DNA from: Anaerolineales bacterium
GTDB lineage: Bacteria > Chloroflexota > Anaerolineae > Aggregatilineales > UBA2796
Direction of reading: 5' to 3'
Length of the DNA: 64,000 nucleotides
Assembly (NCBI GenBank): GCA_015075625.1
Contig: JABTTZ010000002.1
Span: 682,001 to 746,000 of the forward strand
Position 1 is the stretch's first letter; each line of letters starts with the position of its first letter. Below, piece by piece: positions 496 to 5,150 of this stretch. A program made the position numbers and the translations under genes. Below the pieces are notes generated by a model that ran no database searches, was not told where the DNA came from, and worked only from the letters and a program-made list of their open reading frames with translations.

Positions 496-1683
496 TTACG
501 CTTCAATGAGTGCTGCCCACTGCCGGTTTAGGTAGCCTCCCACCAAATGAGTCATTGTCTCCACCTCAACCAAGAAGGAATCGTGACCAAAGGACGCCTC
601 CACATGATGGTACTCTACGGCACGCCCCGACAGTGCGGTAATCAGTTCGCGTGCCTGTGCCGCCGTGTAAAGCCAATCGCTGCTGAAACTGATCACCAAG
701 AATTTTGCGGTGACATGCGCCAGCGCCTCGCCCATATCGGCGCAGCCCTCGGCAATATCAAAATAATCAAGTGCTTTCGTCACATAAAGATAGCTGTTGG
801 CATCAAAGCGCTGGACGAACTTTTCACCCTGATATTTCAGATAGCTTTCAACGGTGTATTCGGGAGCAAAGGTATAACGCCCTCCCGTTTGCAAATCGCG
901 CCCGAATTTCGTTTCGAGTGAATACTCGCTCATATAGGTGATATGCCCAACCATGCGTGCCACTGCAAGACCCGCATCAGGTGGTGTTTTCCCGTAATAA
1001 TCCCCGTTGTTCCAATTTGGATCGGCGTAAATCGCCTGCCGCCCAATTTCGTTGAAGGCGATGTTTTGTGCGGACGAACGGGCGGTACTGGCAAGAAAGA
1101 GGACGTTCTGAACACGGTCTGGGTAATCCACTGCCCATTGAAGCGCCTGCATCCCGCCCATGCTCCCTCCGACGACGGCAAACAGGCGGTGAATGCCAAG
1201 ATGATCGAGCAAATGCCGCTGCGCTGCTACCATATCGCCAACGGTCAGGATCGGAAAACGCAGTCCATAGGGCTGACCGTCCGCCGCAAGCGACGATGGT
1301 CCCGTACTTCCCCGACAGCCGCCAATGACGTTGCTGCAAATGACAAAATAACGGTTCGTATCAAACATTTTTTCCGGACCTACCGCCTCGTCCCACCAGC
1401 CGGGCGCTTCGGCAGGATCATCGGTGTAGTAGCCGGCAACATGAGAATCCCCTGAGAGTGCGTGACAGATCAGAATTGCATTTCGGCAGTCGGCATCAAG
1501 CATTCCATAGGTTTCATAGGCAAGGGTGAAGGCGGGGAGAACACCCCCCCCCTGAAGGGGGAGCGCCTCGTTAAAATGAACGAGGTGGCGCTGGACAATG
1601 CCTACTGAATGACTATCACACATAGCAATATCCTGTGCAAAATCGGGTGTAGAGGCGGGTGTCGATAAGTTCTCCGCCATCAT
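496..1683 (-). CDS. metX: Homoserine O-acetyltransferase (alpha/beta hydrolase)
   Basis: This enzyme activates homoserine by acylation for direct sulfhydrylation to homocysteine in the cytoplasm. The 395 residues show the MetX order: an oxyanion-region motif NAILICHALSGDSHV near residue 90, nucleophile elbow GGSMGGMQALQWA near 175, the Asp of SFSSDWLYTAAQ and the His of ASFGHDSFLVE near the C-terminus. Length is normal for the family. Acetyl versus succinyl donor preference cannot be read by eye, but pairing with metY points to O-acetylhomoserine. It lies 54 bp after metY on the same strand, with a short hairpin between them, and is probably the last gene of the tRNA-Cys-metY-metX unit. The start could be either of the first two Met codons. 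Confidence 0.93.
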   Translation of the reverse strand: MMAENLSTPASTPDFAQDIAMCDSHSVGIVQRHLVHFNEALPLQGGGVLPAFTLAYETYGMLDADCRNAILICHALSGDSHVAGYYTDDPAEAPGWWDEAVGPEKMFDTNRYFVICSNVIGGCRGSTGPSSLAADGQPYGLRFPILTVGDMVAAQRHLLDHLGIHRLFAVVGGSMGGMQALQWAVDYPDRVQNVLFLASTARSSAQNIAFNEIGRQAIYADPNWNNGDYYGKTPPDAGLAVARMVGHITYMSEYSLETKFGRDLQTGGRYTFAPEYTVESYLKYQGEKFVQRFDANSYLYVTKALDYFDIAEGCADMGEALAHVTAKFLVISFSSDWLYTAAQARELITALSGRAVEYHHVEASFGHDSFLVEVETMTHLVGGYLNRQWAALIEA

Positions 1684-1737: not shown

Positions 1738-3108
<1,371 letters not shown>

Positions 3109-3112
3109 TCAG

Positions 3113-3184
3113 AGGTGGTGGTGGGAGTCGAACCCACTCGTTACGGTTTTGCAGACCATAGCGTTCCCACTTCGCCACACCACC
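3113..3184 (-). tRNA. tRNA-Cys (GCA)
   Basis: Read on the minus strand, a 7-bp acceptor stem GGTGGTG/CACCACC closes a full cloverleaf. The D arm has GCG/CGC, the anticodon stem ATGGT/ACCGT holds loop CTGCAAA with anticodon GCA, and the T arm GTGGG/CCCAC carries TTCGACT. The discriminator base is U, the expected identity element for Cys. No CCA is encoded. It sits between the attenuator terminator and metY with no other promoter obvious in the short gap, which suggests it is released by processing from a transcript that also contains metY. Confidence 0.96.
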
Positions 3185-3217: not shown

Positions 3218-3250
3218 AAAAAAGCCCCGGCACTATGGCTCAGGGCTTTT
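3218..3250 (-). terminator. Intrinsic terminator of the Cys attenuator
   Basis: On the minus strand AAAAGCCC (3250-3243) pairs with GGGCTTTT (3227-3220) and two more T follow, giving six T in a row. It lies after the Cys-rich leader ORF and before tRNA-Cys. Its loop contains GCCATAGTGC (3239-3230), which is complementary to GTACTATGGC (3307-3298) inside the leader ORF: ten consecutive pairs with one G-U. That alternative pairing would compete with the terminator. Confidence 0.7.
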
Positions 3251-3277
3251 CACACACCGTCGCAGGGGAGCGACTTT

Positions 3278-3343
3278 TCAGCGTGACGCAACCGGACGCC
3301 ATAGTACGCAACGCGCACTACACATCATACAGCCACAGCACAT
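3278..3343 (-). CDS. Cys/Met-rich attenuator leader peptide, 21 residues
   Basis: A 21-codon ORF starts with ATG at 3343 and reads MCCGCMMCSARC in its first twelve residues: five Cys and three Met. Its stop is 28 nt before a terminator hairpin that precedes tRNA-Cys, metY and metX. Cys is normally a rare residue, so this clustering is hard to explain by chance. The codons just after the last Cys (3307-3298) can pair with the terminator loop, so ribosomes stalling for charged tRNA-Cys would favour read-through. The Shine-Dalgarno sequence is weak (a GGGGA about 12 nt upstream). The product itself is presumably not functional. Confidence 0.72.
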   Translation of the reverse strand: MCCGCMMCSARCVLWRPVASR

Positions 3344-3411
3344 CTGATTCAGCATTCCCCAAACAACCATGAGGGTGACCTTAACTATTGAACTTTCCCT
3401 ATCAAGATACT

Positions 3412-3439
3412 AGTATAATGCATTTTGGAAATTCGGCAA
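3412..3439 (-). promoter_or_regulatory. Putative promoter of the leader/tRNA-Cys/metYX unit
   Basis: On the minus strand TTGCCG (3439-3434), a 16-bp spacer and TATACT (3417-3412) form a reasonable sigma-70-type promoter. Transcription would start near 3405, about 60 nt before the leader ATG. Its -10 overlaps a plus-strand TATAAT (3414-3419) inside the palindromic ATACTAGTAT, so the sulfur and lysine operons may share one divergent promoter region. Confidence 0.5.
3414..3419 (+). promoter_or_regulatory. Putative -10 box for the lysU operon
   Basis: A consensus TATAAT lies about 120 bp upstream of lysU. A TTGAAC occurs upstream but at a 20-bp spacing, so the -35 is poor. Nothing else promoter-like was seen before lysU. 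The stretch 3185-3537 is otherwise accounted for by the Cys leader, its terminator and these overlapping promoters. Confidence 0.4.
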
Positions 3440-3537: not shown

Positions 3538-4041
3538 ATGCGCTATACAGGGAAAACATGGGTCTACGGCGATAACGTCAACACGGATGTAATCTTCCCC
3601 GGCAAATACACCTACACGGTATCCGATCTGGCACAGATGGCAGCGCACGCCCTCGAAGACCTCGATCCGACCTTTGCCAAGACCGTCCGCGCTGGCGATA
3701 TACTCGTTGGTGGAAACAATTGGGGGAACGGATCGTCACGAGAGCAAGCCGTGACCTGTTTGGTGGCGGCGGGGGTGCGCGTTCTCATCGCCAAATCCAT
3801 CGCCCGTATCTACTTTCGGAATGCGGTGAACGGTGGTTTGCTGCCGGTGGTCTGTCCGGCGGCAGTGGCGGCAATCGAATCCGGGGAGGTCGTCACTGTC
3901 GATACAGAGACATGCACCATCACCTGTGGGGCAGGGATCTTTGAGTTTCCCCAATTATCGCCTTCGCTGAAAACAATTTTAGAAGCGGGCGGGCTGATCG
4001 AGATGCTCAAAGTAAAACTGGCGGCACAGTCACACCCCTAA
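3538..4041 (+). CDS. lysU: Homoaconitase-type small subunit (aconitase swivel domain)
   Basis: Small subunit of the LeuD/HacB family, 167 residues as usual. It carries WVYGDNVNTDVIFPGKY at the N-terminus and the substrate-loop motif GNNWGNGSSREQA near residue 60, followed by IAKSIARIYFRNAVNGGLLPVV. On sequence alone it could serve 3-isopropylmalate or homoaconitate. Context decides: the next two genes are a homoisocitrate-dehydrogenase-like enzyme and a LysK-type hydrolase, so a role in aminoadipate lysine synthesis (homocitrate to homoisocitrate) is favoured. The large subunit is not in the window. The start has no ideal Shine-Dalgarno, only GAGGATC about 12 nt upstream. Confidence 0.82.
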   Translation: MRYTGKTWVYGDNVNTDVIFPGKYTYTVSDLAQMAAHALEDLDPTFAKTVRAGDILVGGNNWGNGSSREQAVTCLVAAGVRVLIAKSIARIYFRNAVNGGLLPVVCPAAVAAIESGEVVTVDTETCTITCGAGIFEFPQLSPSLKTILEAGGLIEMLKVKLAAQSHP

Positions 4042-4076
4042 CCGCATAAAGGTCTCATCTTCCTATTTGACGACAA

Positions 4077-4097
4077 CCGAGACCTACTAAGTCTCGG
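4077..4097 (+). other. Hairpin in the lysU-lysB spacer
   Basis: Perfect 7-bp arms CCGAGAC and GTCTCGG enclose a 7-nt loop in the roughly 100-nt gap between lysU and lysB. No U-tract follows. It may modulate mRNA processing or translation within the operon, but no role can be assigned. Confidence 0.4.
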
Positions 4098-4142
4098 CAA
4101 AGCGCCAAATCATCGTCTTAGACATCGACTCAAAAGGGCGTT

Positions 4143-5150
4143 ATGGCTGCAATCAACGTGTGTTTGATTTCCGGCGATGGTGTGGGCGCGGAAGTCATTC
4201 CCGCTGCACGGCGGGTCTTAGAAGCATTAGGGCTGGATATTCACTTCAGCGAAGCGGAAGCGGGTTGGGCTTGTTTCCAAAAACAGGGTGATGCTCTTCC
4301 CCCTGCAACCCTAGAAGCAATCCGCGCCGCCGATGGAACTCTTTTCGGGGCAACGCAATCCCCTTCGACAAAGGTGGAAGGCTACCGTTCCCCTGTCCTT
4401 GCCATGCGCCGCGCCTTTGATCTCTACGCCAATCTGCGCCCCACCGTCTCGCTGCCCGTGCCGGGCTGCCCGCCGGGGATTGACCTTCTAATCGTCCGCG
4501 AAAACACCGAAGGGATGTACAGCGGGCGTGAACGGCGCGAGGGCGACACGGCAATCAGCGAACGGGTGATCACCGTCCCCGCCACAGAACGTATCGCCCG
4601 CTATGCCTTTGCCGCTGCCCAAAAACGACCCCGCAAAAACGTGACCATCGTCCACAAGGCTAATGTTTTGAAAGAAACAGACGGCTTGTTTCGGGAGGTG
4701 TGTTTCCGCGTGGCAGCAGAATTTCCTGATGTGGCAGTCGATGAACTTCTGGTGGACGCTTGCGCTATGTGGTTGGTTAAAAATCCGGCGCGGTTTGATG
4801 TGATCGTTACCGAAAACCTCTTTGGAGACATTCTCTCCGATGAAGCGGCGGGTTTGGTTGGCGGGTTGGGTATTGCCCCCTCAGCAAACATAGGGGCGGG
4901 AAAAATCGCCTATTTTGAGCCGGTGCATGGCTCAGCGCCGGATATTGCCGGGCAGGGGGTTGCCAACCCCACAGGGGCGATCCTCAGCGCGGCAATGCTC
5001 TTGGCGCATGTTGGACAACCAGAAACCGCTGGACGTATTGAACGAGCGGTGTGGGCAACCCTTTATGATGGTATCTACAGCCGCGATCTGGGCGGTGAGG
5101 CTGGCACACAGGCAATGACGGAGGCGATCCTCGCCCGATTATGGCTATGA
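4143..5150 (+). CDS. lysB: Homoisocitrate dehydrogenase
   Basis: NAD-dependent beta-hydroxyacid oxidative decarboxylase, 335 residues. Family landmarks are [17 protein letters not shown] near residue 95, the substrate-binding [18 protein letters not shown] near 125, the catalytic Lys in [15 protein letters not shown] near 190 and [22 protein letters not shown] near 220. The NAD-site segment [15 protein letters not shown] follows. The phase-determining region and the [13 protein letters not shown] tail resemble Thermus HicDH as I remember it, rather than LeuB or Icd. It converts homoisocitrate to 2-oxoadipate. Its stop overlaps the lysK start, indicating translational coupling. Confidence 0.85.

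Follow-up and report, generated by a model that had tools for sequence, protein, structure and literature searches.

A putative cysteine-sensing leader-peptide attenuator upstream of tRNA-Cys, metY and metX and its relatives in one order of the Chloroflexota

The window analysed here is the whole stretch of 64,000 nucleotides taken from the genome of an Anaerolineales bacterium (G000 in the following). Its minus strand carries, in this order, a promoter-like site, a short leader ORF, an intrinsic terminator, a gene for tRNA-Cys, metY and metX. The enzyme genes were identified with NCBIfam: metY (1738..3057), encoding O-acetylhomoserine sulfhydrylase, matches TIGR01326 with 660.8 bits (cut-off 495.1) and metX (496..1683), encoding homoserine O-acetyltransferase, matches NF001209 with 517.4 bits (cut-off 331). 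The tRNA-Cys(GCA) gene (3112..3184, minus strand) is an extra copy and starts 33 nt past the T-tract of the terminator. Divergent from the leader, the plus strand carries at 3538-5150 two genes which we take to be leuD and leuB, named from their sequence without a library check. Between leuD and the leader there is no gene on the minus strand, so only a transcript starting in the leader region can be stopped by the terminator. The promoter-like site (TTGCCG-16-TATACT, 3412..3439, minus strand) rests on a consensus scan only. It has 9 of 12 consensus matches, and one such site was found where 0.7 are expected by chance, which is weak evidence; the transcript start predicted from it is at about 3405.

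The leader ORF (3278..3370, minus strand) has 30 codons and encodes MVVWGMLNQMCCGCMMCSARCVLWRPVASR, followed by a stop codon. A shorter form of 21 codons starts at the internal ATG 3343 and encodes MCCGCMMCSARCVLWRPVASR up to the same stop (3280-3278). ATG 3370 is likely the better start, because the frame is open to there and a Shine-Dalgarno-like AAGG lies 8 nt upstream of it. Five Cys codons, with their first bases at 3340, 3337, 3331, 3322 and 3310, form a cluster within 11 codons (3308..3340, minus strand; residues MCCGCMMC), and among the window's 1,258 short ORFs no other is as Cys-dense. A preliminary description of the locus had already named a Cys-rich ORF of 21 codons, a terminator and the order tRNA-Cys-metY-metX. 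All of this held, on the minus-strand sequence and with NCBIfam for metY and metX. It had overlooked that the leader ORF is likely longer, that Met is enriched in the leaders, that the extra tRNA-Cys is divergent and that there is a wider regulon, discussed below.

The intrinsic terminator (3218..3250, minus strand) consists of the stem arms AAAAGCCCTG (3250-3241) and CGGGGCTTTT (3229-3220), a loop of 11 nt (3240-3230) and a T-tract reaching to 3218; a simple terminator scan with a loop limit of 8 skipped it. The folding energy of the hairpin is -16.1 kcal/mol. The hairpin is present in the sequence, termination itself is inferred. The 5′ arm and the loop are termed segment 3 and the 3′ arm (3229-3220) segment 4. 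Segment 2 (3290..3307, minus strand), behind the Cys cluster, comprises GTACTATGGC (3307-3298) and GGTT (3293-3290). The former can form ten consecutive pairs, one of them G-U, with GCCATAGTGC (3239-3230) in the terminator loop, exactly the complementarity given in the preliminary description, and GGTT pairs with the base of the terminator 5′ arm (3247-3244). This leader-terminator duplex is stronger than expected from dinucleotide shuffles (p = 0.015). A pattern search for the same terminator loop elsewhere in G000 returned only the copy at the metY locus; the other matches inspected lie inside apparent coding genes. Furthermore, a hairpin of segments 1 and 2 is predicted (3301..3321, minus strand; 3321-3313 with 3309-3301), which competes with the antiterminator. 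This protector hairpin is clear in the fold of the window and weak across the related units collected below (mean z -0.85).

Constrained folds of the window were calculated at equilibrium, assuming a ribosome footprint of about 12 nt past the A site. A ribosome whose A site is at 3331 or 3322 gives the antiterminator a probability of 0.96-0.999, and the terminator has a probability of at least 0.998 once the ribosome sits on the stop codon or when no ribosome is present. Folding with and without the leader covered, which had been proposed as a check in the preliminary description, gives the antiterminator at the middle Cys codons and the terminator in the two other states. Placing the A site on one of the first two Cys codons (3340 or 3337) makes the terminator the favoured fold at final equilibrium (0.95). 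If the 3′ arm is still unmade, the antiterminator reaches 0.96 or more with the A site at 3340. The model, computed for 3340, predicts that a ribosome on either of these codons would allow the antiterminator to form before the terminator. At 3310, the last Cys codon, segment 2 of the window is covered by the ribosome.

The reading we prefer is ribosome-mediated transcription attenuation in which cysteine is sensed, and we consider it very likely (probability about 0.88). Transcription, stalling and the response to cysteine are all inferred, as no expression data exist. In this model a ribosome would translate the leader ORF behind the RNA polymerase. With ample Cys-tRNA it would clear the Cys cluster, reach the stop codon and mask segment 2, or have just unfolded it, so that the terminator hairpin forms and transcription ends before tRNA-Cys-metY-metX. 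With scarce Cys-tRNA the ribosome would stall in the Cys cluster, cover segment 1 and leave segment 2 exposed. As long as the nascent terminator still lacks its 3′ arm, segment 2 could grab its loop and 5′ arm, leading to read-through. In an untranslated leader segments 1 and 2 would pair and the terminator would form, which would be the basal off state. The relief of termination by a stalled ribosome, as put forward in the preliminary description, is supported in silico by Cys clusters, complementarity, geometry and position-dependent folds; regulation by cysteine remains an inference.

G000 contains at least three units of a Cys-rich leader and a terminator, each in front of a sulfur or Cys/Met operon. 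The second unit precedes cysH-cysC-sat (leader MLRLSTCCPCAMCIPTHPPGGW) and the third a sulfate ABC transporter (leader ending in CRCQPSCGCCSAACCGCGLCACLCC); both leaders end at a stop codon. It is likely, though inferred without expression data, that the same device controls these two operons as well, which would make up a cysteine regulon. The leader of the sulfate transporter shows no complementarity to its terminator (p 0.86, dinucleotide shuffles), and the mechanism of this unit is less certain since clear leader-terminator pairing is missing.

A BLASTN search of 60 relatives showed that the terminator with its loop is conserved in four other genomes of the family (G001, G002, G006 and G010). 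In G010 the unit stands at the orthologous tRNA-Cys-metY locus, with the leader MNYLTASANLNDCMMCCERHSARHYGIRLQHA ending at a stop codon, and in other relatives it stands before a cysH operon or the gene for an ABC binding protein of the branched-chain type. The leader of G001 has only two Cys. Conservation of the Cys cluster at orthologous loci, the absence of which would have spoken against the preliminary description, is therefore only partly borne out: it is found in G010, and the metY genes of five other family genomes (G001, G002, G003, G004 and G006) have no leader, so that the metY attenuator exists in two of the seven family genomes with metY. In genomes without a metY leader the same device was found before other sulfur genes. 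In a wider search the leader recurs in dozens of related Chloroflexota. A covariance model built from five members gave many more matches in another family of the order, and nearly all strong matches carry a CCxCC-like leader. Cys-codon clusters like that of the window recur in 42 members; some weak matches are due to chance (e.g. G106:C491). Downstream of the units lie genes for cysH, sulfite reductase, sulfate transporters, amino-acid binding proteins, rhodaneses and DUF4395 proteins. Across 154 genomes of the order the strict DNA pattern TGTTGTNNNTGT, 50-110 nt, GGGGCTTTT had 24 matches and its reversed-pattern control none. Of 400 genomes drawn from the whole phylum it matched in two, including G000, as against four control matches in three genomes, so at the sensitivity of this pattern there is no sign of units outside the order.

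A nearly independent sample was obtained by picking the cysH genes of the order by PF01507 alone and searching their upstream DNA for a Cys-rich ORF (at least 4 Cys in 9 codons) before an intrinsic terminator. Such a leader with terminator was present in 51 of 82 upstream regions and in 2 of 82 on the reverse strand. The independence is not complete, because eight of the 82 regions had come first from leader searches; their genomes are also in the PF01507 list. In total 87 leader-terminator units were counted before cysH, with two or more units in 36 of the 51 genomes. For these tandem counts the terminators were called automatically, and a few units may be counted twice; in addition, shared descent inflates all counts. 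Examples of tandem units are L125, L116 and L110. Within one genome the two units usually differ in sequence, though G004 has two nearly identical terminators.

The pairing between leader and terminator was assessed with the leader segment after the Cys cluster and the 5′ arm plus loop of the terminator. Against dinucleotide shuffles the own duplex reached p<=0.05 in 24 of 42 members and in 46 of the 87 cysH units. Own terminators pair far better than swapped ones, both in the 42 members (z -9.7, 0 of 20,000 swaps) and in the cysH set, which was chosen without the covariance model (z -10.4, 0 of 5,000); the two sets overlap in some loci. The complementarity is locus-specific, and partners of quite different sequence are found, such as TGTAGTCCG with CGGACTACA and TTCGTTCGG with CCGAACGAA, which is in substance covariation. 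Segment 2, CACTATGGCATTCGG, is nearly identical as RNA in eight members and is read in two frames, giving LWHSA-like peptides in one and HYGIRL in the other. Since the conserved segment is read in different frames, selection acts on RNA pairing and not on the peptide.

The geometry of the units fits the model as well. Counted from the start of the cluster, the median positions are +12 for the last Cys codon, +32 to +49 for segment 2, +55 for the stop and +85 for the terminator. With these medians a ribosome in the cluster leaves segment 2 free, and a ribosome that has reached the stop codon hides the downstream part of this segment. Among 106 distinct units the Cys frame has its stop at 18-45 nt from the terminator, on the upstream side, in 92% of cases, compared with 10% and 40% for the other frames. 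The codon TGT outnumbers TGC by 157:31 in the leaders and by 377:137 in the cysH leaders, compared with 86:86 in the genes of the window, a hint at a tuned sensitivity of stalling. In the same 106 units, Met occupies 42 of the 283 non-Cys places within the first seven positions of the clusters (14.8%), compared with a share of 2.3% in the genes of the window (P ~1e-21). For this roughly six-fold enrichment, visible in clusters such as CCMCC and CMMC, a second sensed amino acid, internal starts or a constraint on the RNA are candidate causes.

Other explanations have to be weighed against attenuation by Cys-tRNA supply. The leaders could encode functional or arrest peptides, for example a Cys-rich metal-binding peptide or a nascent chain sensing cysteine or sulfide, in which case stalling would be caused by the peptide and not by the supply of Cys-tRNA. 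Cys-rich peptides do bind metals, and short motifs such as LWHSA.LCC or GYPxLA are common to some leaders. However, the shared motif is the very RNA segment that is read in two frames, the lengths of the clusters and their flanking residues vary widely, and both TGT and TGC are used, which leaves this explanation very improbable. Joint sensing of Cys and Met, or of translation in general, with cysteine as one input, has somewhat more in its favour: Met is enriched in the clusters, including MCCGCMMC of the window, and the metY-metX operon produces the methionine precursor homocysteine. Nevertheless Cys dominates in every cluster, Met-free clusters (CCAPCCC, CCCCC) are common and the targets belong mostly to sulfate assimilation, so that we regard joint sensing as unlikely.

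It could also be argued that the hairpin is no working terminator and that control is exerted on translation or via Rho, as in mycobacterial poly-Cys uORFs. In support of this, actinobacterial Cys leaders without terminators are described (PMC1262725) and translation attenuation was reported for M. smegmatis (cited in PMC13236596). Against it stand the strong GC stem and T-tract after the leaders at a fairly fixed spacing; furthermore, the first downstream product in the window is a tRNA and translational coupling cannot control a tRNA. There is thus very little room for this alternative. Finally, T-boxes and S-boxes often regulate Cys/Met genes in Firmicutes, and a T-box, a SAM or another known riboswitch might be suspected here. 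An Rfam search gave no family other than tRNA above threshold, relaxed thresholds added just two implausible matches far under the cut-off, and the T-box and SAM riboswitch covariance models of Rfam had no match at the metY locus, by which this possibility is practically ruled out at the level of sequence.

Cysteine-sensing transcription attenuation, the reading retained, resembles the classical attenuators of the enterobacterial trp, his, leu and ilv operons and of mycobacterial and corynebacterial ilvB. In both, the sensed codon recurs in runs within a short leader ORF, and a mutually exclusive antiterminator and intrinsic terminator are set by the position of the ribosome. In contrast to the classical systems the Chloroflexota units would sense cysteine, stand before several operons in one genome, often in tandem in relatives, and in one case precede a gene for the very tRNA that carries the sensed amino acid. 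Cys leader peptides without conserved terminators were predicted in Actinobacteria (Seliverstov et al. 2005, PMC1262725), and mycobacterial poly-Cys short ORFs are reported to be leaderless and to act by translation attenuation (Canestrari et al. 2020, cited in PMC13236596). Runs of Cys before cys genes and a response to cysteine, in Chloroflexota an inferred one, are common to these systems and the units described here. However, the Chloroflexota units possess an intrinsic terminator with a paired antiterminator, and the leader of the window has a Shine-Dalgarno-like sequence before its likely start, the transcript start itself being only a prediction. The T-box and S-box of Firmicutes likewise attenuate transcription of Cys/Met genes, but there the RNA itself recognises tRNA or SAM and no leader peptide is involved, and the metY leader matches no Rfam family. 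Leader-peptide attenuation outside Proteobacteria and Actinobacteria is also represented by the His leader peptides of bacilli (Naville and Gautheret 2010, PMC2965389), which differ from the Cys leaders in amino acid, phylum and genes. The open-access literature searched (subscription papers were outside its scope) yielded no Cys attenuator that uses an intrinsic terminator and no Cys attenuator at all in Chloroflexota and, judged from open papers only, a cysteine attenuation regulon in this phylum is apparently undescribed. With it, leader-peptide transcription attenuation would come to include cysteine sensing by way of intrinsic terminators, and the Chloroflexota as hosts, over several operons and dozens of mostly uncultured species. 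In addition, the regulon offers a concrete hypothesis for the control of sulfate assimilation in these species and a compact Cys-tRNA sensor to test.

Two tRNA-Cys genes each were found in G000, G010 and G003, and in three genera the extra copy adjoins metY or metX (window 3184-3112; L003 1501-1572; L002 1501-1573). In G003 it lies downstream of metX, on a short contig which shows no leader. The remaining tRNA-Cys matches in relatives are mostly housekeeping copies without a leader. Compared with the housekeeping tRNA-Cys, the acceptor, D and anticodon stems of the extra copy differ while pairing is largely kept, the changes in the acceptor and D stems being compensated. This is the pattern expected of a working tRNA, as far as can be inferred from its sequence. 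The extra tRNA-Cys probably needs read-through, because the gap of 33 nt is too short for a full separate promoter, and its control must be transcriptional, since a tRNA requires no translation. A bolder reading, towards which the balance tips only slightly, is that stalling for want of Cys-tRNA turns on an extra, divergent tRNA-Cys together with Met/Cys enzymes. A tRNA gene would then be attenuated by its own codons, within a cysteine regulon of leader-peptide attenuators, many of them in tandem, that belongs to one order of the Chloroflexota and comprises sulfate uptake, activation and reduction, sulfite reductase and metY-metX. If true, tRNA charging would feed back directly on the supply of tRNA.

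Some of the genes downstream of Cys-type leaders deserve mention on their own. A LivK-like branched-chain-type ABC transporter stands under the best-conserved Cys attenuators (L044, L079, L053, L054 and L055), which suggests import of a sulfur compound and not of branched-chain amino acids. A DUF4395 protein, of a family of unknown function, is encoded 3′ of such leaders in L070 (1684-2142, Pfam match) and, by its similar look, in L057; a link of this family to sulfur metabolism is possible. Rhodanese-type sulfurtransferases lie downstream of Cys leaders in L086, L111 and L120, and two of them look secreted.
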